Assembly: GCF_019931755.1 (NCBI RefSeq)
Contig: NZ_CP082918.1
Coordinates: forward strand, 786,001-850,000
DNA length: 64,000 nucleotides
From: Sutcliffiella horikoshii
GTDB lineage: Bacteria > Bacillota > Bacilli > Bacillales > Bacillaceae_I
Direction of reading: 5' to 3'
Shown here piece by piece: positions 68 through 16,123 of the stretch; position 1 is the stretch's first letter, and each line of letters starts with the position of its first letter. A model generated the notes under the pieces. It was not told where the DNA came from and made no database searches. It was given only the letters and a program-made list of their open reading frames with translations. Both the position numbers and the translations under genes were made by a program.

Positions 68-790
68 TTGATAAAGAAAATGAATGATCTAAACGCCTAT
101 GAATGGATAGAAAAAGATACAGTAAGTGTTGATTTGGAAAATTGGAATGGCGGCAAGGTGGGCAATCTAATCCCAAATCGTTATACCCACTATTGCAAAA
201 TCATGAATTCTACTTTTTATCGAGACCGAAGTATCCGAGATGAGACACTTCTTTGGAACCAGATTCATCCAAATGATGAGGTGAAAAACGATTTAGGAGA
301 AGGGATTACCTTGAAGGAGCTCGCTGAAAAATATGACATCCCTTATGACAAAAAGATCAGCAGTATATCAATTGAAAGAAAGCTCGGCGGCTGTCCAAGA
401 TATTTGATCTATCCTGATGAAGGTCGTATCAATCTGGATGTACTCAAGGAAATGACCAAGGTACTGGCACCCTTCACAAAAGAAAAAACATGCTACTTCT
501 TCTATAATATCCTTAAACTAATAGGCAGGATTCCCAATCACGAAATAGAAAACGGGCATTTATATACAGGCGAACTCATCGATATATTCAATATATACAA
601 CAAGGGGGACATGGACGGATTGGCATCGCCCACATATTGGTGGCCTGAAGACCGAAGCTGGTGCATGTTCACCGACTATGACCTTGATTTCACGATTTTC
701 GGGGGAAGTAATCAGATGCTCGATGCACTAATTTCAAACAAGAAACTAGAATGTATCGAAGTAGATTTGGACACACGAGTTGATGATTAA
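68..790 (+). CDS. Hypothetical protein, 240 aa
   Basis: I do not recognise this protein. It has no signal peptide or membrane segment and is rich in Asp, Glu, Trp and Tyr. The C-terminal part contains WWPEDRSWCMFTDYDLDFT, an aromatic/acidic block of the kind seen in small Bacillus proteins of the immunity or SMI1-like type, but I cannot assign a family. A TTG start at 68 is favoured because AGAGGCGGG lies 5-7 bases upstream; an in-frame ATG at 80 is the alternative. It follows the methionine aminopeptidase tail closely, so it may be co-transcribed, and it ends just before a clear terminator. Confidence 0.6.
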   Translation: MIKKMNDLNAYEWIEKDTVSVDLENWNGGKVGNLIPNRYTHYCKIMNSTFYRDRSIRDETLLWNQIHPNDEVKNDLGEGITLKELAEKYDIPYDKKISSISIERKLGGCPRYLIYPDEGRINLDVLKEMTKVLAPFTKEKTCYFFYNILKLIGRIPNHEIENGHLYTGELIDIFNIYNKGDMDGLASPTYWWPEDRSWCMFTDYDLDFTIFGGSNQMLDALISNKKLECIEVDLDTRVDD

Positions 791-800
791 TAATCAATAG

Positions 801-826
801 AAACCACTCTCCCCGAGTGGTTTTTT
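801..826 (+). terminator. Rho-independent terminator
   Basis: AACCACTC and GAGTGGTT form an 8-bp stem with a TCCCC loop, followed by TTTTTT. It closes the short transcript containing the hypothetical gene and isolates it from the amino-sugar operon promoter. Confidence 0.85.
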
Positions 827-834
827 AGAACCAT

Positions 835-855
835 TTTTGAAATTAAGTTTCAAAA
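835..855. promoter_or_regulatory. Candidate operator palindrome upstream of the MurNAc operon
   Basis: TTTTGAAA and TTTCAAAA are perfect 8-bp inverted arms around a 5-base AT-rich centre. The site ends 13 bases before the -35 hexamer of the only good promoter of the operon that contains murR. MurR is an RpiR-family regulator and such regulators bind palindromes near their own operons, so this is the natural candidate MurR site. That is inference; AT-rich palindromes also occur by chance. Confidence 0.45.
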
Positions 856-868
856 TTAAAAATAATCG

Positions 869-897
869 TTGACACTAAATGTCAGAAAATTTATACT
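869..897 (+). promoter_or_regulatory. Sigma-A promoter of the amino-sugar salvage operon
   Basis: TTGACA (869-874), a 17-base spacer and TATACT (892-897) match the vegetative consensus almost perfectly. Transcription should start near 904, giving a leader of about 24 bases before the kinase ATG at 928, whose Shine-Dalgarno is AGGGGAAAG. Confidence 0.85.
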
Positions 898-927: not shown

Positions 928-1923
928 ATGATCATAGGCATTGATGGGGGAGGCACCAAGACTACCGGAGTGGCTGTAGACAAGGATGGAAACATCCTTG
1001 CATTTAAAACGGTAGGTCCTTCTAACCCGAATAGTTCGTCCGAAGAAACAGTTCGTCATGAAATCAATGAGTTGTTTTCTATTTTAACAAAAGGGAAAGC
1101 GCTTACAGAAAAAGATGTTGTTTTTGCAGGAATATCAGGTGTCGAAAGTGGCGGAAAAAAAGAGTGGTTCATCAAGTTGTTGAGAGAGTTCACAGGTCCG
1201 CTTGCCACTATTTTCGTAGATAACGATGCTGTGACAGCACTTTATTCGGAAACTAAAGGCCAACCAGGAATTGTATGTATCAGCGGAACGGGTTCTATCG
1301 TTTATGGTATCAATGACAGCCAAAAACGTGACCGTGTCGGTGGCTGGGGTTTCCTGATTGGCGATGAGTATAGTGGATTTGCAGTAGGGAAAAAAGCGTT
1401 GGAACATATTTTTTCTGAATTGGATCATGGTGAGTTACCTGGCGAAATGGCAAATCGAATTCTACGCCAATTTTACGTGGAAACTGTCCCTGAATTAATC
1501 CCCGTTATGTATGAGATGGGGAAAAGCCGGGACCGAGTGGCGTCCATTGCTAAAATTGTGATTGAGCTTTCTGATAAAGGTGATGAAAGAGCCATCAAAT
1601 TCCTACATGAAGCAGCAGACTCCATGTTAAAAGACATTACTTTACTATTTAAAAAGTTATATGAGCGCGAAGGCGACCACAAACAAATACCTATTGTGTT
1701 AACAGGCGGAATCAATCAGCATGCCAAAGAGATCATAACTTATTTGCAAGAAAAAGGGTTGAAAGAGCGTTCGCCGTTTTCTTTCAAGCTGGCAGCCCAA
1801 CATCCTGTGGCAGGTGCTATCTATGCTGCGCATAAGGAAATAGGGAAAAACATCACTCCTTCGTTTGTGAAAAGGTTGGAAGAAGAGTTAACAACATGGG
1901 TGAAAACGGATGTAAAAGGATGA
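928..1923 (+). CDS. BadF/BadG-type N-acetylhexosamine kinase (MurK/NagK-like)
   Basis: A 331-aa sugar kinase of the ASKHA fold. The phosphate-1 motif GIDGGGTKT is at residues 4-12, the phosphate-2 motif CISGTGSIVYG near 117-127, and the adenosine motif VLTGGINQHA near 258. The family phosphorylates GlcNAc and related sugars; MurK of Clostridium acetobutylicum acts on both MurNAc and GlcNAc at O-6. As first gene of an operon with murQ and an ABC importer rather than a PTS permease, it would supply the 6-phosphate that MurQ needs. The start is ATG with AGGGGAAAG upstream, right behind the promoter. murR follows after 6 bases. The family is certain; the MurNAc specificity is inferred from context. 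Confidence 0.85.
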   Translation: MIIGIDGGGTKTTGVAVDKDGNILAFKTVGPSNPNSSSEETVRHEINELFSILTKGKALTEKDVVFAGISGVESGGKKEWFIKLLREFTGPLATIFVDNDAVTALYSETKGQPGIVCISGTGSIVYGINDSQKRDRVGGWGFLIGDEYSGFAVGKKALEHIFSELDHGELPGEMANRILRQFYVETVPELIPVMYEMGKSRDRVASIAKIVIELSDKGDERAIKFLHEAADSMLKDITLLFKKLYEREGDHKQIPIVLTGGINQHAKEIITYLQEKGLKERSPFSFKLAAQHPVAGAIYAAHKEIGKNITPSFVKRLEEELTTWVKTDVKG

Positions 1924-1929
1924 TAGAAA

Positions 1930-2781
1930 ATGAATGGTGGACTATTACGATTACGTGAAGCATTATCAACGATCAATCCGGCGGAGAGGAATGCCGCTAC
2001 TTTTATACTTGAGCACCCAGAGGAAGTTTGCACATTATCAGTAAAAGAATTAGCTGATAAAAGCAATTCCAGTCAAGCTGCTATCATCAGGCTTTGCAAG
2101 AAAATTGGCTTAGATGGATACAAGGAGCTGAAGCTGCGAATCGCAGGAGATGTTACAAGCATCTCGTCCAACACCCAAGAAGCATATCATGAGTTTAAAT
2201 ATAATGCCGATATTCCGACATTTATGAAGACCATTACTGAAAACAATATCAAGTCATTACGCGACACATTGGAATTACTTGATAAAGAGGAAGTAAGTCA
2301 AGCAGTTGAGTTGCTGCATAAAGCAAATAGGATAGACTTCTACGGGGTGGCAGCATCACAACTCATCGCGCAGGATGCTCAGCAGAAATTCATGCGGATT
2401 AACAAACTTTGCACCGCATATAGCGATTCCCATCTTCAACTGACTTCTGCTACAACAATGACCAAGGGTGATGTAGCGGTTGGGATATCTTATTCAGGAG
2501 AAACAACACAGACAATTGAAGCGATAAGGGAAGCAAAAAAGGCAGGAGCTATAACAATCGCGATTACGAAATACGGAAATAATACGTTGAAGGAGCTTTC
2601 CGATATTTCTTTATCCATCTCTTCTATGGAATCTTCTATCAGAAGTGCGGCAACTTCTTCTAGAATCTCGCAATTAAATGTAATAGACATATTATTCACA
2701 GCAGTTGCAGCAATTGACTTTGAACAATCAGTCGAATATTTGAAAAAATCCAGAGAGACAATCAATAAGACATACAGATAA
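1930..2781 (+). CDS. murR: RpiR-family transcriptional regulator, MurR-like
   Basis: A 283-aa RpiR-type regulator. Residues 1-77 form the N-terminal HTH_6 domain, with a recognition region around LADKSNSSQAAIIRLCKKIG. A SIS sugar-phosphate binding domain covers about 115-260, including the phosphate-binding stretch GISYSGETTQTIEAI. In E. coli and B. subtilis MurR senses MurNAc-6-phosphate, the MurQ substrate. Here it lies between the kinase that would make that ligand and murQ. The start is 6 bases after the kinase stop, with AAAAGGATGAT as ribosome site inside the kinase end. It probably controls the whole operon; a candidate operator lies at 835-855. Confidence 0.87.
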   Translation: MNGGLLRLREALSTINPAERNAATFILEHPEEVCTLSVKELADKSNSSQAAIIRLCKKIGLDGYKELKLRIAGDVTSISSNTQEAYHEFKYNADIPTFMKTITENNIKSLRDTLELLDKEEVSQAVELLHKANRIDFYGVAASQLIAQDAQQKFMRINKLCTAYSDSHLQLTSATTMTKGDVAVGISYSGETTQTIEAIREAKKAGAITIAITKYGNNTLKELSDISLSISSMESSIRSAATSSRISQLNVIDILFTAVAAIDFEQSVEYLKKSRETINKTYR

Positions 2782-2812
2782 TTAAGAGTTACAAAAAAAG
2801 GTGATGGTGATG

Positions 2813-3724
2813 ATGGGATTAGAAAATTTACAAGATTTAGTGACGGAGCAGCAGAATTCAAAAACATTAAAGATTGACCGTAAATCTACCGAAGAAATCC
2901 TCGAAATCATCAATGAGGAAGATCAAACGGTACCCATACATATAAAAAGAGAGATACCAAGCATTACTAAAGTGGTTGATCAAGTGGTGAAGTCTTTTGA
3001 GATGGGTGGACGCCTCTTCTATGTTGGCGCAGGAACGTCCGGCAGAATTGGAATCCTGGATGCCTCCGAGTGCCCTCCTACTTTTGGAACTCCGTCAGAA
3101 ATGGTGAAGGCGGTTATCGCTGGTGGGGAAACGGCCATTTTTAAAGCGGTGGAGGGTGCGGAAGATAGTGAAGAACTTGGAGCATCCGACATGCACAGCA
3201 ATGGGGTGAGGCTTCATGATGTTGTTATTGGGATCACGGCGAGTGGGAGAGCTCCTTATGTGATTGGTGCTCTTAAGGAAGCGAAGAAGCTTGGAGCAAG
3301 CACTGTTTCCTTCACCTGCACAAAGGATTCCGCCCTTAATAAAGTAGCAGATTATAAGATTAATATAGAGGTAGGTCCAGAAGTTATTACTGGATCCACA
3401 AGAATGAAAGCTGGTACCACACAAAAGCTGGTTCTGAATATGATTACAACCACTTCAATGGTGAAACTAGGAAAAGTTTATAACAACTTGATGGTGGATG
3501 TTCAACCATTAAATAAAAAACTGGTAGACCGTGCAAAAAGGATTATCCAAAATGTAACGGGCTGCTCGTTTGAAGAAGCCAGTGAGCTCTTTGACCAATC
3601 AGAGGGTAATCCGAAAATTGCCATTATCATTTTCACCTGCCAAGTCAATAAAGACAAGGCGGCAGAGTTATTAAGTGACGCAAATGGATTCGTTTATAAG
3701 GCTATAAAGGCTTATAATAAATAA
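2813..3724 (+). CDS. murQ: N-acetylmuramic acid 6-phosphate etherase
   Basis: MurQ cleaves the lactyl ether of MurNAc-6-P to give GlcNAc-6-P and D-lactate in the cytoplasm. The SIS fold signature is complete: GAGTSGRIGILDASECPP includes the catalytic Glu (about residue 86, equivalent to E. coli Glu83), and ITGSTRMKAGTTQK is the family tag. A C-terminal helical segment (FEEASELFDQSEGNPKIAI) is also present. The length of 303 aa is normal. The reading frame opens at GTG 2801 with several starts in a row; ATG 2813 is chosen because AAAGGTGAT at 2797-2805 then sits at proper distance and the protein begins MGLENLQDLVTEQ like its relatives. Confidence 0.95.
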   Translation: MGLENLQDLVTEQQNSKTLKIDRKSTEEILEIINEEDQTVPIHIKREIPSITKVVDQVVKSFEMGGRLFYVGAGTSGRIGILDASECPPTFGTPSEMVKAVIAGGETAIFKAVEGAEDSEELGASDMHSNGVRLHDVVIGITASGRAPYVIGALKEAKKLGASTVSFTCTKDSALNKVADYKINIEVGPEVITGSTRMKAGTTQKLVLNMITTTSMVKLGKVYNNLMVDVQPLNKKLVDRAKRIIQNVTGCSFEEASELFDQSEGNPKIAIIIFTCQVNKDKAAELLSDANGFVYKAIKAYNK

Positions 3725-3747
3725 TAATTTTCAAGGGGGAATTGGTG

Positions 3748-5070
3748 TTGAAAAGGGGTTTAAGTTTAATGATGGTCATGTTGCTTGTAGCTGCCGTGGT
3801 TCTTGGTTGCTCCAACAATTCATCGACATCATCCGATGGAAAAGACGTTGTAACAGTTTGGACATATCCTGTTCATGGTGAATATGAAGCAGAACTAGAA
3901 GAGTTGATTGCTTCATTCGAAAAAGAAAATGAAGACATTAAAGTAGAATATGAAGTACTAAGTTGGGCGGAGGGTCCACAGAAGTTTGATATTGCCTTGA
4001 ACTCTGGAAATCCACCAGATGTTTATTTTGGAAAACCACAAGGTAAATATGTGGATTCCGGTTTGATTGTAAACCTTAATGACAAGTTAAATGTTTCTCA
4101 AGATGATTATAATGAAGTTGCCTTAGACTATATGAAAATTGAAGATAATCTATATGGATTACCAATTTACATGTTCTTACATGTATGGGGTGGAAACAAA
4201 CAAATGCTAGAAGCTGCTGGCGTTGACTACGAAAAGATCCAACAAGAAGGCTGGACTTGGGATGAGTTTGAAGAACTAGCATCTAAAGGTGTTGGCAAGA
4301 AAGACTCTGGTGAAGATACTTACGGATTTGTATTCCAAGGAAACAACGAAGAACTTCTTGTTCATTTAGCGATGAACAATGGTCTTCCAAGCCGCTATAC
4401 TGCGGATGGAACGACTTGGAATGACGATAAAATTTTAGACACAATGAAATATATCTCGAACTTGGTTGATTCTGGTATCATGCCAAAAGAAACGGCTGCA
4501 GTTGATCCAGCAAAACGTATGGAATTGTTCTATAACCACCAAGCAATGTTCTTTGGGCGCGCTATTCCTTATTTTGACCCAGTAGTAGAAGCTCACAATG
4601 AAGAAATCAAAGCAGGTAAAATTGAAGGAGAGGAAGTAGATTTCGTTCTATTGCCAATCCCTCATAACGAAGGGGAAGAGCAAGTATCATTCGGTGGATC
4701 TGAAGGATACATGTTATTCACTCAAAAGAATGCAAAAGAAGAACACTTAAATAACAGCGTTAAAGTATTAGAGCACCTGACAAGTGCAGAGGCTGGTAAA
4801 GCTGCAGCAGCATTAGCATTGCCACAAGTCCATAAAGATGCTGAAGGCAAGTTTGAAATGCCATTAGCGCCTTATAATGAAACGGCTGCGGAAGTTCTGG
4901 CTTCTAAAGTTTTACCACCAGCTAACGCAAGTGCTGAAATGGCGGCAAAAGATGATCGCTTCCGTACAGAAGTTGTCATCCCAACATTCCAAGGTCTTCT
5001 GAGCGGGGAATTGACACCTGAAGAGGCGTTAGAAACGTTTAAGACCAAGGGCGAGGAAATCTTTAAGTAA
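3748..5070 (+). CDS. Sugar ABC transporter substrate-binding lipoprotein
   Basis: A cluster B (MalE/UgpB-like) extracellular solute-binding protein of about 440 aa. A lipoprotein signal peptide is followed by the lipobox VVLG-C (Cys about residue 21), so it is anchored outside the membrane. It should capture the operon's substrate, probably MurNAc/GlcNAc oligosaccharides released during wall turnover, and pass it to the two permeases downstream. TTG 3748 is favoured over TTG 3742 and GTG 3745 because AAGGGGGA (3733-3740) is 7 bases away. A hairpin follows the gene, which commonly lets the binding protein be made in excess over the permeases. Confidence 0.88.
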   Translation: MKRGLSLMMVMLLVAAVVLGCSNNSSTSSDGKDVVTVWTYPVHGEYEAELEELIASFEKENEDIKVEYEVLSWAEGPQKFDIALNSGNPPDVYFGKPQGKYVDSGLIVNLNDKLNVSQDDYNEVALDYMKIEDNLYGLPIYMFLHVWGGNKQMLEAAGVDYEKIQQEGWTWDEFEELASKGVGKKDSGEDTYGFVFQGNNEELLVHLAMNNGLPSRYTADGTTWNDDKILDTMKYISNLVDSGIMPKETAAVDPAKRMELFYNHQAMFFGRAIPYFDPVVEAHNEEIKAGKIEGEEVDFVLLPIPHNEGEEQVSFGGSEGYMLFTQKNAKEEHLNNSVKVLEHLTSAEAGKAAAALALPQVHKDAEGKFEMPLAPYNETAAEVLASKVLPPANASAEMAAKDDRFRTEVVIPTFQGLLSGELTPEEALETFKTKGEEIFK

Positions 5071-5079
5071 GGTAGAAGG

Positions 5080-5116
5080 AAAAGAGGAGGGGGTAACGCT
5101 CTTCCTCTTTTATTTT
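5080..5116 (+). terminator. Partial terminator/attenuator inside the operon
   Basis: AAAAGAGGA (5080-5088) pairs with TCCTCTTTT (5103-5111) and the stem extends inward with GC and GU pairs around a GTAACG loop; ATTTT follows. It lies between the binding protein and the first permease, where partial termination or 3' protection would set their ratio. Confidence 0.65.
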
Positions 5117-5131
5117 CAAGGAGGTGTAGAC

Positions 5132-6052
5132 ATGTCAGCGAAACCGGCAGCAGCCGCAACTACCAACAAATTTAATTTCTCCCAGTTTATAAAAGATTAT
5201 GGATGGTGTTATGCCTTCATAGCTGTTCCTATCATCCTCTTTCTAATGTTTACACTATTTCCAGTAGGTTACGCCTTTATTATGAGTTTTCAAAACTATC
5301 ATGTGTTAGGTTCCACATGGGTAGGGTTGGAAAACTATCAAACAATGGTGAACGATGATATCTTTTGGAAAGCTATGTGGAATACATTCATTTTCACAGT
5401 GGGTACAGTACCTGTAAATGTTGCCATCACTCTATTTTTGGCGGTATTGATTTTTCCGCGTGCCAAAAAGGCTCAAACTTTCTTCAAAGCATCGTTATAT
5501 CTTCCGACGGTAGCTTCTGGGGTAACGATCGCATTAGTATGGTTCTGGATTTATGATCCAACCTCTGCGGGACTTTTTAATATGTTCCTAGGACTTTTTG
5601 GTATCGATAACATCATGTGGCTCGGGCAGAGTAGTACAGCATTATTTTCTATCATGCTAATGTCTTATCTGACAGGACATGGCGCCGGTATTATTCTTTA
5701 CCTCGCAGCACTTGGAGGGATTCCGAAATCTCTTTATGAGGCAGCAGATATCGATCATGCGTCTGAGTGGTCGAAATTCAGAAATATCACTTGGCCATTA
5801 TTGAAGCCTACCACTTTGTATCTTTTAGTAACAGGTATCATTATGAGTTTCCAAGTGTTCATGAGTATCTATCTTATGACTCAAGGTGGTCCAAACTTTG
5901 CGACTACCACCATTGCCTATTTAATTTATACACACGCATTTGAATATTATAAATTCGGTTTGGCGGCGGCAGAATCATTTGTGCTTGGAGCAGTAATTAT
6001 TTTGGCTTCTGTCATACAATTCAAAGTGATGTCATCTGATGTGGAATTTTAG
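5132..6052 (+). CDS. Sugar ABC transporter permease (MalF/UgpA type)
   Basis: A 306-aa inner-membrane permease with six predicted helices starting near residue 25. The cytoplasmic EAA loop reads EAADIDHASEWSKFRNITWP, the contact point for the ATPase. It is the first of the two permeases of a carbohydrate uptake (CUT1) importer. The start ATG follows a perfect AAGGAGGTG. It ends 18 bases before the second permease and is transcribed with it. Confidence 0.9.
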   Translation: MSAKPAAAATTNKFNFSQFIKDYGWCYAFIAVPIILFLMFTLFPVGYAFIMSFQNYHVLGSTWVGLENYQTMVNDDIFWKAMWNTFIFTVGTVPVNVAITLFLAVLIFPRAKKAQTFFKASLYLPTVASGVTIALVWFWIYDPTSAGLFNMFLGLFGIDNIMWLGQSSTALFSIMLMSYLTGHGAGIILYLAALGGIPKSLYEAADIDHASEWSKFRNITWPLLKPTTLYLLVTGIIMSFQVFMSIYLMTQGGPNFATTTIAYLIYTHAFEYYKFGLAAAESFVLGAVIILASVIQFKVMSSDVEF

Positions 6053-6070
6053 GAAAGGAGGAAACATCTT

Positions 6071-6964
6071 TTGGAAACGACAACGGTAAGCAATCAAAAT
6101 TATGCAGAAATAGCCTTGAAAAAAGAAAAAGCAAGAAATCGCAAAAAGAAGATTTATAGTGTGATCAGTTACAGCATTCTGATTTTATGGGTAATTATCA
6201 CCATCATCCCTCTATATTGGATGTTAATTTCCTCTTTCCGGGATACCACTGTCAGTGTCTCATTCAAACCTGAATGGTTCCCTTCCGAAGTGACACTTGC
6301 GACATATATTCGATTTTTGACAGAAACCGATGCACTACGTTGGTTATTTAATAGTATTTTCGTATCATCCGTCTTAACGTTATCAAATGTAATTTTCTCT
6401 TCTCTAGCAGGGTACGCATTTGCGAAACTACGATTCCCTGGAAGAAACACTATTTTCTGGTTACTGCTTGGTACGATGATGATACCAGCGCAGGTAACAT
6501 TAATTCCGGTCTACATCATGATCGTAAACGTATTCGGGTTAGTAGATACATATTTAGCCATTATGCTCCCGATGTTTACAGTAGTGGGCAACATCTTCTT
6601 GATGAAACAGTATATGTCTACACTTCCCACCACTCTCATTCAAGCTGCCCGTATTGACGGGTGCAGTGAGATTGGCATATTCAGAAAGATTATATTACCG
6701 ATATCTAAGCCCGGTGTGGCGGTGTTAGCAATTTTCACGTTTGTGTCTACCTGGAATGAATTCTTTTGGCCGTTCCTTGTTACGCAATCCAGTTCCATGA
6801 GAACGATACAAGTTGGATTGGCTAGCTTTAAATTCCAAGATGCAACAGACTATGGAGCAATGATGGCAGGATCCATGCTTGCTGCATTGCCAATGTTCAT
6901 ATTGTTCTTTGCATTACAGCGTTACTTCTTACAAGGAATTACAATAGGTGCAGTGAAAGGATAG
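6071..6964 (+). CDS. Sugar ABC transporter permease (MalG/UgpE type)
   Basis: A 297-aa CUT1 permease with six predicted helices after a basic N-terminus (KKEKARNRKKKI). The EAA loop is QAARIDGCSEIGIFRKIILP, followed by the family C-terminus QRYFLQGITIGAVKG. It pairs with the preceding permease to form the channel. The start is TTG 6071 behind AAAGGAGG, and the stop overlaps the ribosome site of the ATPase gene. Confidence 0.9.
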   Translation: METTTVSNQNYAEIALKKEKARNRKKKIYSVISYSILILWVIITIIPLYWMLISSFRDTTVSVSFKPEWFPSEVTLATYIRFLTETDALRWLFNSIFVSSVLTLSNVIFSSLAGYAFAKLRFPGRNTIFWLLLGTMMIPAQVTLIPVYIMIVNVFGLVDTYLAIMLPMFTVVGNIFLMKQYMSTLPTTLIQAARIDGCSEIGIFRKIILPISKPGVAVLAIFTFVSTWNEFFWPFLVTQSSSMRTIQVGLASFKFQDATDYGAMMAGSMLAALPMFILFFALQRYFLQGITIGAVKG

Positions 6965-6973
6965 GTGGAAGAA

Positions 6974-8083
6974 ATGGCAAGTATCATTATGGAAAACATC
7001 ACAAAAACCTTCGTGGACGAAAAGCGTGGCGGAACCTTCACTGCTGTAAATGATGCCAGCTTTGAGATAAAAGATAAAGAATTTCTTGTATTTGTAGGAC
7101 CATCCGGATGTGGAAAGACGACTTCCCTCCGCATGATCGCAGGACTTGAAAGACAAACTTCAGGAAACATTTACATTGGAGATAAAGTAGTAAACAATAT
7201 GCACCCAAAAGATAGAGATATCGCGATGGTGTTCCAGGATTATGCGCTATACCCGCATATGACGATTGAACAGAACCTTGAATTTGGATTAAAGAATATG
7301 AAGGTGTCCAAAGAAGAAATTAAAAAGAAAGTTCAATATGCTTCCAGAATCCTTGGGCTTGATGAGATGCTTGATAGAAAACCAAAAGAATTGAGTGGGG
7401 GACAACGCCAGCGTGTTGCCGTTGGAAGGGCGATTGTCCGTGATCCGAAAGTGTTCCTTTTTGACGAACCTTTATCCAATTTGGATGCCAAGTTACGCGT
7501 GCAAATGCGTATCGAGTTAGCAGAATTGCATCAGAGATTAGGGGCAACAATTGTATATGTTACACATGATCAGGTGGAAGCAATGACACTTGGAGAACGA
7601 ATTGTGGTCATGAATAAAGGTGAAGTACAACAGATAGCTTCACCGAGAGAATTATACCGAAACCCTGCAAACATGTTTGTTGCGGGATTCATCGGTTCAC
7701 CGCCAATGAACTTTTTCGATGCAGTTCTTGAAACGGCCTCTACATTAAGAATCGGTGATATTTCCTTCACTATTCCAGAAGGACTTGTTAAACAATATTC
7801 AGATTATGTTGGCAAAAAAGTTATCTTGGGTTTACGACCGGAAGATATTTATGACGAAGAGTTTGCGTTCACCGTTCCAACCAATAATAAAACGGCCATC
7901 AAGGTAAAGGCGATGGAACATTTAGGTGGAGAGAACCTTGTGTATTTCTCGATTGGCGATCGAATGATTACGGCGAAAGTACATGGTGAGAGTTTTGTCC
8001 GTCCTGGGGAAGCGAAAAACTATGTATTCAACCTGGATAAAATGCATCTGTTTAATCCTGCAACAGAGAAAAGAATATTTTAA
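6974..8083 (+). CDS. Sugar ABC transporter ATPase (MsmX/UgpC type)
   Basis: A 369-aa CUT1 ATPase. Walker A is GPSGCGKTTS, the signature LSGGQRQRVAVGRA, Walker B VFLFDEPLSNLDAK, and the switch His is in VTHDQVEAM. The C-terminal regulatory OB/TOBE domain covers about 240-365. B. subtilis importers of this class borrow the shared ATPase MsmX; this operon has its own copy. ATG 6974 is preferred over GTG 6965 because AGGTGG directly precedes it and the protein then starts MASIIMENITKTF. Confidence 0.92.
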   Translation: MASIIMENITKTFVDEKRGGTFTAVNDASFEIKDKEFLVFVGPSGCGKTTSLRMIAGLERQTSGNIYIGDKVVNNMHPKDRDIAMVFQDYALYPHMTIEQNLEFGLKNMKVSKEEIKKKVQYASRILGLDEMLDRKPKELSGGQRQRVAVGRAIVRDPKVFLFDEPLSNLDAKLRVQMRIELAELHQRLGATIVYVTHDQVEAMTLGERIVVMNKGEVQQIASPRELYRNPANMFVAGFIGSPPMNFFDAVLETASTLRIGDISFTIPEGLVKQYSDYVGKKVILGLRPEDIYDEEFAFTVPTNNKTAIKVKAMEHLGGENLVYFSIGDRMITAKVHGESFVRPGEAKNYVFNLDKMHLFNPATEKRIF

Positions 8084-8132
8084 TAGACATTAGCGAATAC
8101 AACCAAGAAAAGATTTTAAAGGAGAGAGTGTA

Positions 8133-8807
8133 ATGGATGGATTAACACAAATTATAAGAGTCACAGGGAGAGAGTATTACAAACATATAGTTTCTATGGT
8201 CATGATCAGCCTTATAATGGTGACGGTACTTAGTCCATCCTTCTTTCTTATTAAACTGCCATTTTCTATTGTATACGTCATGATTGTAATGGGGCCTTTA
8301 CTTGTTGGGGCCGCGTGGGCGGTTCAGCAGTTATTGCTTGATAGAAGCACATCTGTGATTAAAAGTTTCTTTCAGGGGGTAAAACGATATTTTCTTCCAA
8401 GTATCGGATACAGCTTATTTTTATCCTTTTTTGTCATCATCATTGCTGCTTCTTGGTGGCATTATAATCAAGTGGGTGGAACGTTTGCCTTTGCATTAGC
8501 ATGCTTTCAGACGTATTTCTGCGGAATGGTTTTCTTAAGTCAGATTTATACCGTTCCTTTATTGGTGAAATTTGAGTATTCATTAAAGGATAGTATCTTC
8601 ACCAGTGTAAAACTTTTGGTGAAAAATCCGTTGTATACCATTCTATCGTTCTTCCAAATCTTATCGGTCTTTGCTTTATTGTTATTAACTGTCGTGGGCC
8701 TTTTCATTATTTTCCCTGCCCTTGCGACACTTTTCAATAATATTGTGACTAGTACCGTCATTGCTACAGAAGAAAACATCGATAGTTGGGAAACGGCAAA
8801 TATTTAG
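8133..8807 (+). CDS. DUF624 (YesV-like) membrane protein
   Basis: A 224-aa integral membrane protein with about five hydrophobic helices. Length and layout match the DUF624/YesL-YesV family, whose members are nearly always embedded in sugar ABC transporter operons of Bacillus and relatives. The biochemical role is unknown; a helper of transporter assembly or function has been suggested by context only. It starts at ATG behind AAAGGAGAGAG, 49 bases after the ATPase, and ends 9 bases before namZ. Confidence 0.8.
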   Translation: MDGLTQIIRVTGREYYKHIVSMVMISLIMVTVLSPSFFLIKLPFSIVYVMIVMGPLLVGAAWAVQQLLLDRSTSVIKSFFQGVKRYFLPSIGYSLFLSFFVIIIAASWWHYNQVGGTFAFALACFQTYFCGMVFLSQIYTVPLLVKFEYSLKDSIFTSVKLLVKNPLYTILSFFQILSVFALLLLTVVGLFIIFPALATLFNNIVTSTVIATEENIDSWETANI

Positions 8808-8816
8808 GAGGGAAAC

Positions 8817-9977
8817 ATGGCCAAAGTATTATATGGAATCGATCGTTTTGTGGATGAAAAACCAAGTATATGGAGTGGGAAACGAATTGCCCTTGTTACG
8901 AATCAAACAGGTATCACTTCTGATTTCCGCTCTACTATCGACGTGTTGAATGAAATGGAAGGAATAACCCTTCATAAACTATTTGCCTGTGAACATGGAG
9001 TAAGAGGAGATGTTCAGGCAGGTGTGCATGTAGAAGATTTTATCGATGAAAAGACAGGATTGCCTGTTTTTAGCTTATACGGACCATCCAAAAAGGTATC
9101 TACAGAGTTGTTAGAAGATGTAGATGCCATTTTTTTTGATATTCAAGATGTTGGAGTAAGATTTTATACATATTTAGCTACAGTTAAGTACATCATGGAG
9201 GCTTGTCAGCAGACTAGAACGGCATTTGTGGTAATGGACCGTCCCAATCCCATTGCACCACTTACGTCAGGGAATATCCTGGAGTCTGAGTTTGTCTCTT
9301 TTGTCGGTCCTTATTCCCTGCCTGTTTGTCTTGGTTTGACGATAGGGGAATATGCAAGGCTGATTCAAAAGGAGTTATATCCGGAAGTGGAGTTGCTTGT
9401 GTACGAGGTGAAGAATTGGGACCGGAGCATGTGGGGCGATCAATGGCAGCAGCAATGGATTCCGCCATCCCCAAACATTCCGCACTTTTCCACCACTTTG
9501 TATTATCCCGTTACATGCTTTATCGAAGGAACGAACCTTTCAGAAGGAAGAGGCACGACCAAACCGTTTGAGTGGATTGGTGCGCCATGGTTTAAGCCGG
9601 AAGAGATGATCAAGCATTTTGCTGATAAAAATATTGATGGTGTGGAGCTTATTCCCGCTTATTTTACACCAAACATGAGTAAGCACGCTGATGAACTTTG
9701 TAAGGGAGTTCAACTGTTGATTACAGATCGGCACTCTTTACAAGTATCCAAAGCCGCCTATGAATTCTTGCATTCTATCTTTTCCGTTCATGAAGAGGCG
9801 GAGTGGCTAGAACCTTTTAAAGAAGGGATGCACCCTTTTGCCGACCTATTATGGGGAACGGAAAAAGTTCGGATGGCAATTGACTCTCGTGTGCCGTATG
9901 AAGTTGCAGCAGACAGTTGGGACAAAGGATTAGATGACTGGCAGAAACGAATAGATTCGATATTACTATATGACTGA
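8817..9977 (+). CDS. namZ: Exo-beta-N-acetylmuramidase NamZ (DUF1343), cytoplasmic form
   Basis: A 386-aa DUF1343 protein. Family blocks visible are ALVTNQTGI (24-32), FFDIQDVGVRFYTYLAT, VMDRPNPI and EGTNLSEGRGTTKPFEWIG. B. subtilis NamZ (YbbC) removes MurNAc from non-reducing ends of wall glycans. That enzyme is secreted, but this protein begins MAKVLYGIDRFVDEKPS and has no signal peptide or anchor, so it should act in the cytoplasm on imported oligosaccharides. GGAGGGAAAC precedes the ATG. It sits directly before nagZ, whose product removes the alternating GlcNAc; together they can degrade a glycan stepwise. Confidence 0.9.
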   Translation: MAKVLYGIDRFVDEKPSIWSGKRIALVTNQTGITSDFRSTIDVLNEMEGITLHKLFACEHGVRGDVQAGVHVEDFIDEKTGLPVFSLYGPSKKVSTELLEDVDAIFFDIQDVGVRFYTYLATVKYIMEACQQTRTAFVVMDRPNPIAPLTSGNILESEFVSFVGPYSLPVCLGLTIGEYARLIQKELYPEVELLVYEVKNWDRSMWGDQWQQQWIPPSPNIPHFSTTLYYPVTCFIEGTNLSEGRGTTKPFEWIGAPWFKPEEMIKHFADKNIDGVELIPAYFTPNMSKHADELCKGVQLLITDRHSLQVSKAAYEFLHSIFSVHEEAEWLEPFKEGMHPFADLLWGTEKVRMAIDSRVPYEVAADSWDKGLDDWQKRIDSILLYD

Positions 9978-9993
9978 TAGAGGAGGACTTGGG

Positions 9994-11598
9994 ATGAAGA
10001 CAATTCACGAGATGACATTGCACGAAAAAGTAGGTCAATTGTTTGTTGCGGGATTTCACGGTACTGCCCCTTCTGGGGAGATAGTGAAACTAATAAAAGA
10101 TTATCACATTAGTGGAGTCATTTATTTTGCACGAAATGTGGAGGACCCTAAACAGCTTCATGCGCTTACAAAAGAATTGCAAAAAGCTGCCAAGGATGCG
10201 GGAACAGCTCCACTTTTCATCTCCATTGATCAAGAGGGAGGAATGGTTGCCCGGATAACAGAGGGTGTGACGTTAAGCCCGGGGAACATGGCACTCGGCG
10301 CAGGAGGTAATGAAGAGACAGTTTACCAGCTAGGAAAAGTAGTGGGGACAGAACTCCGCTTGCTTGGAATAAACATGAATTACGCGCCATGCATCGATGT
10401 GAACAACAATCCTTTGAACCCTGTCATCGGTGTTCGTTCTTATGGCGAGAGTGCAGAGTTTGTTGCAAGGATGGGTGTTCAGAGTGTGAATGGATTGCAG
10501 GATGCCAATGTATCTGCAGTTGTAAAACATTTTCCCGGGCATGGAGATACTAGTGTGGACTCACATTTAGACCTTCCGGTGGTTCATCATGATTTAGAGA
10601 GATTAAAAGAGTTGGAACTGGTTCCATTTTATGAAGCGTTTAAGCATGGAGTGGACGCTGTCATGGTCGCACATGTGGCATTTCCTTCTATAGATCCAGA
10701 GAAAGTTCCTTCGACTTTGTCCCGTAAGGTTGTATCGGAATTACTACGTGGAGAAATGGGCTATGAGGGTGTGGTTGTGACCGATTGCATGGAGATGAAT
10801 GCCATTATTGATTACTATGGCATAGAAGAAGCTGCTATCCTGGCAGTCGAAGCGGGAATCGATCAAGTCCTTATCAGTCATACATTTGAGCGCCAGACAA
10901 GGGCGATAGAAGCGGTGATAAAAGCAGTTGAATCGGGCCGCATCTCATTGCAGCAAATTGACGCAGCGGTGGAGAGGGTTCTTAATTTGAAGGAAGTACG
11001 TAATCTTCAAGAAAACAGCGCTGAATGGACGGATTGTAAAAGTGAAATCGGCTCTGTTAAACATACAGAACTTGCGCAAAAAGCAAGTGAGGCGAGCATC
11101 ACGTTTGTAAAGGAAAGGGAAGGACTACTTCCACTTCAGTCAGAAGAGCAGATTCTACTGATATCTGTAGATCCATATGTCACTTCAGGAGCAGATGATA
11201 CATTATATTCAGAGGTCACCATTGGTAGTTTCTTAGAGGAAAAGTTGCCAAATCTAACTGAAGTCATCGTTTCTGTTACTCCAGAGGATGAAGTGGTGGA
11301 AAAGTTGATTTTAGCAGCTTCTGGTGTGGATAAAATAATGGTTGCGACATATCAAGCCGTTCAGCACGATTCCCAGGCGGATCTTGTTCGGAAACTTGTT
11401 AAGGAATATGGGGATAAAGTAGGCGTCATTGCGTTGAGAAGTCCTTATGATGTGGTTAAGTTCCCAGAGGTATCCACTTATATTCTTACGTATGAAAGCA
11501 GGAAGCTAGCCCTTCAATCGGTTAGCAAATTCCTCTTAGGTGAAATAGAAGCAAAGGGGAAGCTGCCTATCACACTTGGAACAGCAAAGGTAAATTAA
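9994..11598 (+). CDS. nagZ: Beta-N-acetylglucosaminidase NagZ (GH3), cytoplasmic
   Basis: A 534-aa GH3 enzyme that removes GlcNAc from non-reducing ends of muropeptides or glycans. The NagZ signature KHFPGHGDTSVDSH (178-191) includes the Asp-Ser-His acid/base dyad typical of this branch, and VVTDCMEM carries the likely nucleophile Asp264. A smaller C-terminal domain covers about 345-530. There is no signal peptide, unlike secreted B. subtilis NagZ, so it works on imported substrates. The open frame extends upstream to 9970 across the namZ stop, but ATG 9994 lies 6-7 bases after AGAGGAGGA and is the likely start. anmK follows after 2 bases. Confidence 0.92.
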   Translation: MKTIHEMTLHEKVGQLFVAGFHGTAPSGEIVKLIKDYHISGVIYFARNVEDPKQLHALTKELQKAAKDAGTAPLFISIDQEGGMVARITEGVTLSPGNMALGAGGNEETVYQLGKVVGTELRLLGINMNYAPCIDVNNNPLNPVIGVRSYGESAEFVARMGVQSVNGLQDANVSAVVKHFPGHGDTSVDSHLDLPVVHHDLERLKELELVPFYEAFKHGVDAVMVAHVAFPSIDPEKVPSTLSRKVVSELLRGEMGYEGVVVTDCMEMNAIIDYYGIEEAAILAVEAGIDQVLISHTFERQTRAIEAVIKAVESGRISLQQIDAAVERVLNLKEVRNLQENSAEWTDCKSEIGSVKHTELAQKASEASITFVKEREGLLPLQSEEQILLISVDPYVTSGADDTLYSEVTIGSFLEEKLPNLTEVIVSVTPEDEVVEKLILAASGVDKIMVATYQAVQHDSQADLVRKLVKEYGDKVGVIALRSPYDVVKFPEVSTYILTYESRKLALQSVSKFLLGEIEAKGKLPITLGTAKVN

Positions 11599-11600
11599 CG

Positions 11601-12782
11601 ATGTTTCAAACACTAATAAACGTAACAAGTAAACCAGAGCGAATCGGAATCGGCATCATGTCTGGAACATCTGTAGATGGTGTGGATGTTGCTATCATTT
11701 CTGTGAAAAGCAGCGGTGAAGAGCTGAGTTATCAACAACTTGCCTTTGATACGGTGGATATACCTCAAGACTTGAGAAAGAAGATTTTTAAACAGTTTAA
11801 CCCTGCTGAGAGCTCTGTGGATAAACTGTGCAGTCTTAATTTTGAACTCGGCCAACTGTTTGCTTCAGCCGCTCGCTCTGTTGTGGAAAATGCAAGCTTG
11901 CGCGTGGAAGATATTGACTTCATTGGGTCCCATGGTCAAACAATCTATCATATCCCTGTAAATCAGCAGGATATGTGCTTAGTAAAATCGACCATGCAGA
12001 TTGGTGAAGCTTCCGTTCTTGCAGAGAAGTTTCAATGCCCTGTTGTTTCTGATTTCAGGGTGCGCGATATGGCTGCAGGTGGGGAAGGTGCACCATTAGT
12101 TCCTTATGTGGATCATTTGCTTTTCCGGTCGGATACGGAGAATATCGCCTTGCAGAACATTGGAGGAATTGGGAATGTGACCTATCTTCCTAAAGGTGGT
12201 TCTGCTTCTGATGTGATTGCTTTTGATACGGGACCGGGTAATATGATTATGGATGAGGCGATGAATATTCTGACGGAAGGTAAATTCCAGTTTGATAAAA
12301 ACGGAGAGATGGCAGCTAAGGGTACGATCAACGAAGATATTTTAAAAGAGTTGATGGACCATCCTTACTTTACGTTACCTGTACCTAAAAGTACGGGGAG
12401 GGAGTTGTTTGGGGCTGCTTATACTAGGAAGCTAGTCGATAAAATGCTTGTGAAGGGACTTTCTTCCGAAGACATTTTGGCAACGGTCACGATGTTTACA
12501 GCTTTGACTATTGTAGATCAATTAGGTCGATTCCTGCCAGGTGGAGTAGACACTCTTGTGGTGAGTGGCGGAGGGGCTTATAATGCTACCCTTCTCCGTT
12601 TCTTGAAAGAGTTAGGTGGCTTTGTGGTGAAGACCCAAGAGGATTTGGGATTTTCCAGCGAGTCTAAAGAGGCGGTGGCGTTTGCTTTATTGGCAAATGA
12701 GACGTTGTTCGGTGTGCCGAATAATGTACCTACTGCTACTGGTGCGGCCAAGCAGGTGGTGCTTGGGAAAGTGACGATTTGA
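11601..12782 (+). CDS. anmK: Anhydro-N-acetylmuramic acid kinase
   Basis: AnmK opens the 1,6-anhydro ring of anhydroMurNAc and phosphorylates O-6, giving MurNAc-6-P for MurQ. The 393-aa ASKHA kinase has GIMSGTSVDGVDVAI (17-31), the SHGQTIYH loop, QNIGGIGNVTYLP and FDTGPGNMIMDEA, all diagnostic. The C-terminus has VVSGGGAYN. It is the last gene of the operon, 2 bases after nagZ. Its presence implies that lytic-transglycosylase products (anhydro ends) are recycled as well as hydrolase products. No clear terminator follows; a repeat array starts 38 bases downstream. Confidence 0.95.
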   Translation: MFQTLINVTSKPERIGIGIMSGTSVDGVDVAIISVKSSGEELSYQQLAFDTVDIPQDLRKKIFKQFNPAESSVDKLCSLNFELGQLFASAARSVVENASLRVEDIDFIGSHGQTIYHIPVNQQDMCLVKSTMQIGEASVLAEKFQCPVVSDFRVRDMAAGGEGAPLVPYVDHLLFRSDTENIALQNIGGIGNVTYLPKGGSASDVIAFDTGPGNMIMDEAMNILTEGKFQFDKNGEMAAKGTINEDILKELMDHPYFTLPVPKSTGRELFGAAYTRKLVDKMLVKGLSSEDILATVTMFTALTIVDQLGRFLPGGVDTLVVSGGGAYNATLLRFLKELGGFVVKTQEDLGFSSESKEAVAFALLANETLFGVPNNVPTATGAAKQVVLGKVTI

Positions 12783-12819: not shown

Positions 12820-13019
12820 ATGAAGACCTCTCTGGCGTGAAAATCGAAGGGGAGAGGTCTTCATCTGAGTTATGAAGACCTCTCTTGCGTGAAAATCAAA
12901 GGGAAGAGGTCTTCATCGGGTTCATGAAGACCTCTCTTGCGTGAAAATCAAAAGAGAGAGGTCTTCATCCGAGCTATGAAGATTTCTCAAGTGTGAAAAT
13001 CAAAAGGAGCGAGGTCTTC
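12820..13019. repeat. Tandem 52-bp palindromic repeat array A (4 units)
   Basis: Units begin with ATGAAGA at 12820, 12872, 12924 and 12976, exactly 52 bp apart. Each unit has inverted arms ATGAAGACCTCTC and GAGAGGTCTTCAT around a 15-17-base centre containing GTGAAAATC. The last unit is degraded. The units contain no gene and the centres are not variable spacers, so this is not CRISPR. The array lies between the convergent anmK and glcF genes. The same sequence family recurs at 22890. Confidence 0.9.
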
Positions 13020-13223
13020 CCGCTCTCCGGTGACAGAAATCCCTCAATCGCTGAAGTTTTGTCATCGTTGCCGCTCTCCGGTGACAGAAATCCCTCAATC
13101 GTTGAAGTTTTGTCATCGTTGCCGCTCTCCGGTGACAGAAATCCCTCAATCGTTGAAGTTTTGTCATCGTTCAAGCTCTCCAATGACAAAACTCCCCCGT
13201 TCACTGCAGTTCTGTCATCTTAG
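13020..13223. repeat. Tandem 51-bp repeat array A2 (3 perfect units and 1 degraded)
   Basis: Units start at 13020, 13071, 13122 and 13173. The first three are almost identical; the fourth is diverged. Each holds imperfect inverted arms TGACAGAA and TTTTGTCA. The array directly abuts array A but has a different sequence. Because 51 is divisible by three, repetitive open frames appear on both strands; no ribosome site supports them. Confidence 0.88.
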
Positions 13224-13276: not shown

Positions 13277-14617
13277 CTATTTACTACCTTCTAATTTCCC
13301 CTCCAACCCCTCTAATAAAAAGTCAGCAATATGAACGGCCCTCAGCACTCCGGTCAACCCTTCTCTCTCAATCCCAAGCTTCATCTGCAAAAGACACCCG
13401 GGATTTGCAGTCACGATGGTTGTCGCCATACTTTCGGCTACTTTCTCCATTTTATGGTCCAGGATCTGCATGGACATTTCGGACTCGACGATGTTGTAGA
13501 TTCCCGCAGAGCCGCAACAACGATCGGCATCTTTCATCTCATAAAAGTCTGCACCACCTACGGCCTGCAATAACAACCTTGGCTGGAGAAATGTGCCCTG
13601 TACATTGCGAAGATGGCAGGAATCTTGATAGGTCACTCGTTGAGGTCGCACCGACAAAACTTTCTCATGAAACTTCAGTTCTACCAAAATAGCTGACATA
13701 TCTTTGATTTTCTTTTTAAAGGAAAGGGCCCGTTCTGCCCACTCGGGATCATCTTTCAGGAGATGGTCGTAGTCAACAAGAAAGGCTCCGCACCCACCTG
13801 CATTGGTGATGATATAGTCCACTTCCAAGTCTTCAAACGCAGCGATATTCCGCTTTGCAAGCTCCTTGCCTTGATCCTTTTCCCCGCTATGTCCGTGAAG
13901 CGCCCCACAGCAATTCTGCTCCTTTGGTATGACAATTTCACAGCCTGCATGCTGCAAAAGCTTCATTGTGGCATCGTTTGTTTTAAGGAACATGGTATCC
14001 ATCAAGCAACCGGAAAAAAATGCTACTCTTTTTTTCTTTGTTTCAAGTGCTGGCAAATTAGTAGGACGATCCTTCATTTCCCTCATGCTAGGAACTTTTG
14101 GGAGCACCCGTTCCATGCTTGCCATGCTGTCAGGTAACAATCTCAGCAAACCGGTGTGATGAACAGCGCTTTGAAGTCCCGACCGTTGATAGATTCCGAG
14201 AAAGTTTGTCATTATCCTCATACGATTTTGGTGAGGAAACAGCCCTTCAAAGACAGTTTTTCGCAAGACACGGACCGGAAGCGAGTGTTTTTTATTTTGA
14301 TTGATGATGTCACGTGCCTCCTCGAGCAGGTGGCCATATTTTACGCCTGAAGGACAAACAGGCTCACAAGCTCTGCAGCCTAAGCACAGATCAAGAGTGC
14401 GCTCTACATCTTCATCAGGTTCTATCACCCCGTCGACCACTGCTTTCATTAAAGCGATTCGGCCCCGTGGGGATTGGGATTCTTTAAAACCTGACTCCAC
14501 ATAGGTGGGACATGATGGGAGACAGAAGCCGCAGCGCATACAGTTCAGCAGTTCATCTTCATCCATGCGACTTTTGAATTCGTCTTGAATGACTTGTTTT
14601 TCTTTTATTGAGGTCAT
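13277..14617 (-). CDS. glcF: Glycolate/D-lactate oxidase iron-sulfur subunit
   Basis: A 446-aa protein with two 4Fe-4S motifs, CMRCGFCLPSCP (26-37) and CLGCRACEPVCP (78-89), and two CCG domains (FSGCLMDTMF with NCCGALH, and SCHLRN with CCGSAGIYN). It passes electrons from the FAD subunit GlcD to the membrane quinone pool. Its ATG overlaps the glcD stop by 4 bases (ATGA), so the two are translationally coupled. No third subunit glcE is present, as in other Bacillus glcDF pairs. Glycolate and D-lactate are both plausible substrates. Confidence 0.9.
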   Translation of the reverse strand: MTSIKEKQVIQDEFKSRMDEDELLNCMRCGFCLPSCPTYVESGFKESQSPRGRIALMKAVVDGVIEPDEDVERTLDLCLGCRACEPVCPSGVKYGHLLEEARDIINQNKKHSLPVRVLRKTVFEGLFPHQNRMRIMTNFLGIYQRSGLQSAVHHTGLLRLLPDSMASMERVLPKVPSMREMKDRPTNLPALETKKKRVAFFSGCLMDTMFLKTNDATMKLLQHAGCEIVIPKEQNCCGALHGHSGEKDQGKELAKRNIAAFEDLEVDYIITNAGGCGAFLVDYDHLLKDDPEWAERALSFKKKIKDMSAILVELKFHEKVLSVRPQRVTYQDSCHLRNVQGTFLQPRLLLQAVGGADFYEMKDADRCCGSAGIYNIVESEMSMQILDHKMEKVAESMATTIVTANPGCLLQMKLGIEREGLTGVLRAVHIADFLLEGLEGKLEGSK

Positions 14618-16026: not shown

Positions 16027-16123
16027 AAAAAAAACCTCCCAGTCTATAAAACATCTTATCTTTATTTTATAAGAAGGAAGAGGGGAACTCTATGTATATT
16101 TATCTAAAGTAAAAGGCGGTTAA

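Follow-up and report, generated by a model that had tools for sequence, protein, structure and literature searches.

A predicted operon for phosphotransferase-independent, ABC-fed salvage of peptidoglycan sugars in Sutcliffiella horikoshii

We analyzed a 64,000-nt window of the Sutcliffiella horikoshii genome (assembly GCF_019931755.1, contig NZ_CP082918.1, positions 786,001 to 850,000 of the forward strand; positions below are those of the window), in which eleven same-strand open reading frames fill positions 928–12,782 (+). Judging from their sequences, we consider it likely that these genes form an operon for the MurR/RpiR-regulated scavenging of peptidoglycan sugars which does without a phosphotransferase system (PTS), is fed by an ATP-binding cassette (ABC) importer, and cleaves the imported sugars in the cytoplasm. 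The genes, separated in order by gaps of 6, 19, 17, 61, 18, 0, 49, 9, −8, and 2 bp, are the following (MurNAc, N-acetylmuramic acid; GlcNAc, N-acetylglucosamine):

928..1923, +: BadF-type amino-sugar kinase, predicted MurNAc/GlcNAc 6-kinase, MurK-like (profile match and motifs)
1930..2781, +: MurR/RpiR-type regulator (HTH_6 and SIS domains)
2801..3724, +: MurQ, MurNAc-6-phosphate etherase (TIGR00274)
3742..5070, +: CUT1 solute-binding protein (SBP), probably a lipoprotein (SBP_bac_1, N-terminus, predicted fold)
5132..6052, +: CUT1 permease, MalF/UgpA type (profile match)
6071..6964, +: CUT1 permease, MalG/UgpE type (profile match)
6965..8083, +: importer ATPase, MalK/UgpC type (profile match)
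8133..8807, +: membrane protein, weakly DUF624/MusI-like, accessory (profile scores below cut-off)
8817..9977, +: NamZ, exo-N-acetylmuramidase, without a signal-peptide-like N-terminus (NamZ_N and NamZ_C)
9970..11598, +: two-domain GH3 NagZ, N-acetylglucosaminidase, without a signal-peptide-like N-terminus (GH3 profile)
11601..12782, +: AnmK, anhydro-MurNAc kinase (PF03702)

In the mechanism we propose, autolysins would release peptide-free di- and oligosaccharides of MurNAc and GlcNAc outside the cell, where the surface-exposed SBP would bind them and the CUT1 ABC transporter, with its own ATPase, would import them unphosphorylated. Once in the cytoplasm, MurNAc would be taken from the non-reducing ends by NamZ and GlcNAc by NagZ; the BadF-type kinase would then yield MurNAc-6-P and GlcNAc-6-P, AnmK would convert anhydro ends to MurNAc-6-P, and MurQ would produce GlcNAc-6-P and D-lactate, with NagA continuing to glycolysis. 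The substrate is presumably peptide-free, and anhydro sugars are presumably imported along with it. The chemistry of each of these enzymes is established for its family. Part of it is covered in PMC5061867, PMC5790795, and PMC6262408 (here and below, papers are cited by accession for those parts of their text that were available).

The order of the eleven genes, as listed above, was found again in 8 of the 16 loci retrieved from the window's family, which is more than chance, and in one of the eight (L068; loci are numbered with L) no murR was seen. The enzyme labels are backed by profile scores: MurQ, with one genome match above cut-off, reached 385.8 bits for TIGR00274 (cut-off 302), the single-copy NamZ matched NamZ_N at 250 bits and NamZ_C at 150 bits, and AnmK scored 364 bits for PF03702 against a cut-off of 24. 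NagZ matched GH3 at 329 bits and the NCBIfam beta-N-acetylhexosaminidase profile at 208.9 bits, barely above its cut-off of 207. The regulator carries HTH_6 and SIS domains and does not reach the cut-offs that NCBIfam sets for its named MurR/RpiR regulators. The CUT1 importer is complete, consisting of the SBP, two MalF/MalG-type permeases, and a MalK-type ATPase with an OB domain (MalK/UgpC type, 474 bits, cut-off 432; OB_MalK, 52.9 bits, cut-off 27).

An earlier, sequence-only reading had described this gene set as a single operon devoid of PTS genes. The eleven genes and their enzyme labels hold, and domain searches of the eleven products revealed no PTS gene in 928–12,782; the DUF624 label for the 224-aa membrane protein at 8133–8807 was rejected, as its score of 14.9 bits for PF04854 lies below the Pfam cut-off of 24.2. 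This protein scores 28 bits for MusI_fam (cut-off 160) and has relatives in L119, L136, and L201; those in L068, L119, and L136 matched no Pfam family at E 0.1.

The same reading had proposed a genome search for murP, and this search found none. The genome holds six places with an EIIB domain of type PF00367, to which we take MurP to belong: Tre, TIGR02003 (unknown), Glc (twice), Suc, and Nag. The pair of EIIBC proteins most similar to MurP scored 190 and 227 bits for the MurP profile and are trehalose and sucrose permeases, with scores of 681 (Tre) and 630 (Suc) above the respective cut-offs. As a control, six murQ-linked EIIBC proteins of other genomes scored 280–346 bits for MurP and fell below the Tre and Suc cut-offs. 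For these bacteria the MurP cut-off of 516 is set too high, given that the murQ-linked proteins are also below it, and the absence of MurP therefore rests on the comparison of scores and on the EIIB type. The genome also contains a separate GlcNAc PTS (L006), two copies of NagA, one of them beside the GlcNAc PTS gene, and one Glucosaminidase-domain frame (41 bits).

Hydrolase location and transporter type across murQ loci

Neither NamZ nor NagZ of the window has a hydrophobic, signal-peptide-like N-terminus, and the SBP has one. We compared these N-termini across other loci using a crude hydropathy window rather than SignalP, with thresholds of 1.9 for NamZ and 2.0 for NagZ and with start codons taken mechanically. 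The murQ loci comprised 16 from the window's family and 64 of the 75 other places listed from a 299-genome sample of the phylum, in which 69 genomes have MurQ; L111, which had no murQ call, was left out, and the window itself was not among the 79 loci counted. Of these, 28 had a PTS enzyme II (EII) without a BadF-type kinase, 29 had the kinase without an EII, 1 had both, and 21 had neither (Fisher p 5e-7, uncorrected for relatedness). The sole locus with both, L102, has an EII of the glucose/GlcNAc type.

For NamZ we added 44 loci from a 398-genome sample of the class (NamZ in 144 genomes), approximately one locus per genus and hand-picked before their neighbours were seen, which brought the NamZ genes compared to 67. 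A hydrophobic N-terminus was present in all seven NamZ encoded beside EIIBC and murQ (4 families) and in 3 of the 26 encoded beside murQ with the kinase and/or CUT1 permeases, a difference with a Fisher p of 3e-5 that is likewise uncorrected for relatedness; the 23 lacking it at kinase/CUT1 loci come from 11 families. Neither of the two NamZ beside murQ only had such an N-terminus. NagZ followed suit, with hydrophobic N-termini in 6/7 proteins at EIIBC and murQ loci (the exception, L105, has an uncertain start), 2/22 at kinase/CUT1 loci (L202 and L237), 0/5 beside murQ only, and 12/14 without murQ; eight of the 20 kinase/CUT1-locus NagZ without a signal peptide are from the window's family.

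The compartment of the hydrolases thus appears to go with the type of transporter. This is the pattern that the mechanism predicts, since a PTS makes a kinase unnecessary and is well matched to hydrolysis outside the cell, while sugars imported whole by an ABC transporter require both a kinase and hydrolysis in the cytoplasm. Taken with the N-termini of the window's own NamZ, NagZ, and SBP and with the presence of NagA, this comparison with PTS-type loci leaves the complete cytoplasmic, PTS-independent route of the earlier reading well supported from sequence.

Two further types of locus were observed. The NamZ loci compared from the class sample included 32 without murQ within ~10 kb, 29 of them with a signal-peptide-like N-terminus, a combination that is frequent in Bacilli. 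In the window's genus, seven loci (L064 and L074–L079) hold a shorter murQ cluster of regulator, CUT1 permeases, and murQ, with no BadF-type kinase nearby, to which L074 adds an SBP and a beta-lactamase-fold protein (PF00144).

Kinase, binding protein, and rival readings

The first gene of the operon encodes, as the sequence-only reading had stated, a BadF-type kinase resembling Clostridium MurK. It matched BadF/BcrA (PF01869) at 128 bits, has the DGGGT, catalytic Asp, GTGS, GGWG, and GD motifs of the BadF/BcrAD family, and is present in a single copy. Kinases 84–87% identical to it occur in four named contigs (Sutcliffiella/Bacillus) belonging to family genomes already in our set, and were counted once. 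Among solved structures, 8zo3, which we take from its molecule name to be MurK of Clostridium acetobutylicum, matched at 110 bits, and this MurK is said to act on both MurNAc and GlcNAc (PMC5790795). We predict the same substrates for the window kinase.

We also considered the two pocket features that PMC10465942 names for MurNAc, namely small residues at the lactyl pocket and the absence of an Asn before the catalytic Asp. At the positions of S133-P134-L135 the window kinase has GGW, as do human NAGK and 8zo3, while MurK of Tannerella forsythia has SPL; a GGW-type pocket, as in human NAGK, is expected to accept MurNAc, and an Asn before the catalytic Asp is expected to hinder it (PMC10465942). 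The pocket residues of the window kinase are mixed in this respect, and the 8zo3 kinase, named for MurNAc and GlcNAc, likewise has an Asn before its catalytic Asp; the sequence rules therefore do not settle MurNAc specificity.

The hydrophobic N-terminus of the SBP ends in VLGC, and Cys23 is almost invariant across 62 sequences. The SBP is probably a lipoprotein; a scripted lipobox pattern gave no flag. Its AlphaFold model (pLDDT 91.8) is folded like sugar-binding proteins, many with di- or oligosaccharides (cello-, malto-, and chito-) as ligands, and the matches listed in the fold search were generic sugar binders, with no muramic-sugar binder among them. Seventy-four relatives were found at 1e-30 among 7993 candidates scored, those with named sources being from Sutcliffiella, Shouchella, Brevibacillus, Paenibacillus, Clostridium, and Thermoanaerobacterium, and, where named themselves, these are only ABC or sugar ABC transporter binding proteins. 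Arg259 was considered as a carboxylate clamp, as it was invariant in a first alignment of 8 sequences, and was dropped on finding Arg in 48 of 62. The predicted ligand is a MurNAc/GlcNAc di- or oligosaccharide.

The same fold neighbours include the chitin-oligosaccharide binding proteins 7eho, 7ehu, and 7ehq, and this raises the question of whether the importer takes chito-oligosaccharides instead, the operon being mainly a GlcNAc/chitin route with a BadF-type GlcNAc kinase and a GH3 glucosaminidase, and with MurQ, NamZ, and AnmK as side entries. The closest solved relative of NagZ, 6k5j, is named as a GH3 beta-N-acetylglucosaminidase, and among 120 listed of 674 kinase relatives the names, where given, are mostly N-acetylglucosamine kinase or BadF-type ATPase, with one protein, P0090, bearing a UniRef name beginning "N-acetylmuramic acid/N-acetylgl". 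However, the genome has a separate GlcNAc PTS, most of the operon's genes also cluster in other families (e.g., L119, L201, and L241), and three of the eleven genes, murQ, namZ, and anmK, have products that act on muramic sugars. We consider a chitin route unlikely. A scheme in which the importer takes up MurNAc and GlcNAc as free monosaccharides, while NamZ and NagZ leave the cell by a non-classical route and act outside, has a parallel in B. subtilis, where AmiE and NagZ are extracellular (PMC5061867), but the N-termini of the window's hydrolases are not signal-peptide-like, though their homologues at PTS-type loci have such N-termini, and many SBP fold neighbours bind di- to oligosaccharides; we find this highly improbable. 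Extremely improbable, in our judgement, is the import of intact muropeptides with their stem peptides, in the manner of AmpG or YejBEF, followed by trimming by cytosolic amidases encoded elsewhere. AnmK and a cytoplasmic NagZ do resemble the Gram-negative recycling set (PMC5061867), but the importer is of the carbohydrate CUT1 type, and none of the eleven products has an amidase domain (including the amiE type) or a carboxypeptidase domain, the rest of the genome not having been searched for amidases.

Several points nonetheless weigh against ABC-fed cytoplasmic salvage of muramic sugars. Since the operon has no amidase, peptides must be removed elsewhere, and the SBP fold, which would fit MurNAc-GlcNAc without singling it out, does not identify the ligand. 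The best solved relative of the kinase is 2e2n (132 bits), a protein named hexokinase, which qualifies the likeness to Clostridium MurK, and Asn99 precedes the catalytic Asp100. With regard to the comparison of loci, 21 of the 79 had neither an EII nor a BadF-type kinase (ROK kinases were not looked for), 8 of the 23 NamZ without a signal peptide come from the window's own family, and NamZ at three kinase/CUT1 loci (L133, L202, and L237) do have one. Lastly, a single genome, G066, combines an ABC-type murQ locus (L119) with one of the EIIBC type (L083), and the two routes are therefore not mutually exclusive within one cell. An EIIBC-type locus (L065) also occurs in one genome of the window's family.

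Control region and neighbouring genes

Upstream of the kinase gene we noted three elements, which we compared across nine upstream regions (the window and eight relatives):

801..823, no strand assigned (the scan lists the − strand): hairpin AAACCACTC-TCCCC-GAGTGGTTT followed by a T-run, likely the terminator of the upstream gene and the operon boundary
836..854, no strand assigned: palindrome TTTGAAATTAAGTTTCAAA, candidate MurR/RpiR operator (conservation)
869..897, +: promoter TTGACA-17-TATACT (11/12 consensus matches; conserved)

The hairpin is among the four best palindromes in six of the nine regions (the window, L066, L069, L070, L071, and L073) and is also visible in the alignment in L067. 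The TGAAAT half of the palindrome is kept in all nine, and the palindrome is degenerate in L068. Its only exact site in the genome is 836..854, and with two mismatches it has 29 genome matches, compared with 10 for the reversed control (besides the same place on the other strand). A MurR operator would be the natural guess for this site. Both promoter hexamers are kept in 9/9 regions; the promoter scan as a whole was at chance (25 sites vs. 28.7 in shuffles), and the weight therefore rests on the conservation of the hexamers. Within the operon, the 61-bp gap between the SBP and first permease genes contains a terminator-like hairpin (5086–5104; the scan gave 16 such sites vs. 10.4 in shuffles), which may possibly raise SBP expression.

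Preceding the operon, 68–790 (+) encodes a 240-aa protein without a Pfam match, a relative of which lies upstream in 6 of 8 family operon loci. Between anmK and glcF, two adjacent tandem arrays occupy 12,820–13,219: one has a 52-bp unit repeated 3.8 times and is rich in complementary 12–14-mers (gagaggtcttcat/atgaagacctctc), and the other a 51-bp unit repeated 3.9 times, a 22-bp piece of which occurs nowhere else in the genome at ≤3 mismatches. Convergent with the operon, 13,277–17,242 (−) encodes glycolate/D-lactate oxidase-like glcD and glcF and a CdaR-type regulator. D-lactate is the by-product of MurQ, a possible tie to glcDF (13,277–16,026). A general association of glcDF with MurNAc loci was unsupported, with glcD/glcF relatives in 5 of 52 kinase/CUT1 murQ loci, 3 of 28 EII loci, and 0 of 11 others, a count that understates the window's family because most retrieved stretches end at anmK. 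With further stretches included, glcDF was found downstream of the operon in five of seven other family operon loci (L153, with one gene between, L155, L156, L158, and L159); in L157 glcF is ~6 kb away, and there is none in the stretch of L154 or in L160, from another family.

Relation to known salvage routes

The window operon shares with the murQ-murR-murP-amiE-nagZ-namZ(ybbC) operon of B. subtilis the clustering of MurQ, a MurR-type regulator, NagZ, and NamZ. B. subtilis relies on the PTS permease MurP and extracellular AmiE and NagZ (PMC5061867), whereas in the window operon amiE is absent, an ABC importer, a kinase, and AnmK are encoded, and the hydrolases lack signal peptides. The mupG-murQ-murP-murR operon of Staphylococcus aureus resembles it in that intact MurNAc-GlcNAc enters the cell and is cleaved in the cytoplasm before MurQ acts; there, MurP phosphorylates on import and MupG cuts the 6-phospho-disaccharide (PMC6262408), whereas import in the window operon would be unphosphorylated and followed by NamZ/NagZ and a kinase. 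MupG (DUF871) was not found among the eleven products, the rest of the genome not having been searched for it. In murT-murK-murQ of Tannerella forsythia, PTS-free MurNAc uptake, a kinase, and MurQ are likewise combined in one operon, but MurNAc is taken up there by MurT, a member of the sodium symporter superfamily (PMC5790795), while the window operon has a CUT1 ABC importer and glycosidases, with no MurT among its uptake genes. The window operon may thus be seen as a blend, PTS-free like that of Tannerella and importing whole sugars like that of S. aureus. The sequence-only reading had set it against E. coli and B. subtilis; the difference from the MurP route stands, and that contrast omits the Tannerella murTKQ and S. 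aureus whole-import precedents (PMC5790795, PMC6262408).

More distant parallels exist. Streptomyces coelicolor SCO4305–4308 includes MurQ and a MurR-like regulator and is described as having no MurP orthologue, with no importer named and two genes of unknown function in the available part of PMC5061867. Paenibacillus NagB1 and NagB2 are SBPs for amino-sugar di- and trisaccharides in chitobiose uptake, with cytosolic hydrolysis as one option (PMC8233162); their ligand is chitin oligosaccharide, and the word MurNAc is absent from PMC8233162. The Streptomyces cluster was likened by description, not by sequence. Agrobacterium has an ABC transporter, YejBEF-YepA, that differs from the CUT1 type. 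It takes part in peptidoglycan recycling and imports muropeptides (PMC9790009).

PTS-free MurNAc salvage and cytoplasmic cleavage of imported MurNAc-GlcNAc are thus already known, and neither ABC uptake of wall fragments nor a cytoplasmic NagZ is new as such. In the literature, the titles and abstract openings among the matches listed held no ABC importer for MurNAc-GlcNAc with a cytoplasmic NamZ, which is not a claim that none has been published. The ABC-fed type of operon is seen in several Bacillota families. Wall-sugar salvage in Bacillota may follow two designs, a proposal for which we see the case as evenly balanced: one with MurP and secreted NagZ/NamZ, the other with an ABC importer, a kinase, and cytoplasmic NamZ, NagZ, and AnmK. 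The second would import unphosphorylated MurNAc-GlcNAc and anhydro-ended fragments, and so could also scavenge the walls of other bacteria.

The Gram-positive recycling routes in the literature compared run through MurP. If our reading is true, MurNAc salvage would still be within reach of Bacillota whose genomes yield no MurP, S. horikoshii here among them, and a family of SBPs named only as (sugar) ABC transporter binding proteins would gain a predicted ligand. As a simple rule, the salvage route could then be predicted from a genome by way of the link between the type of transporter and where the hydrolases are located.

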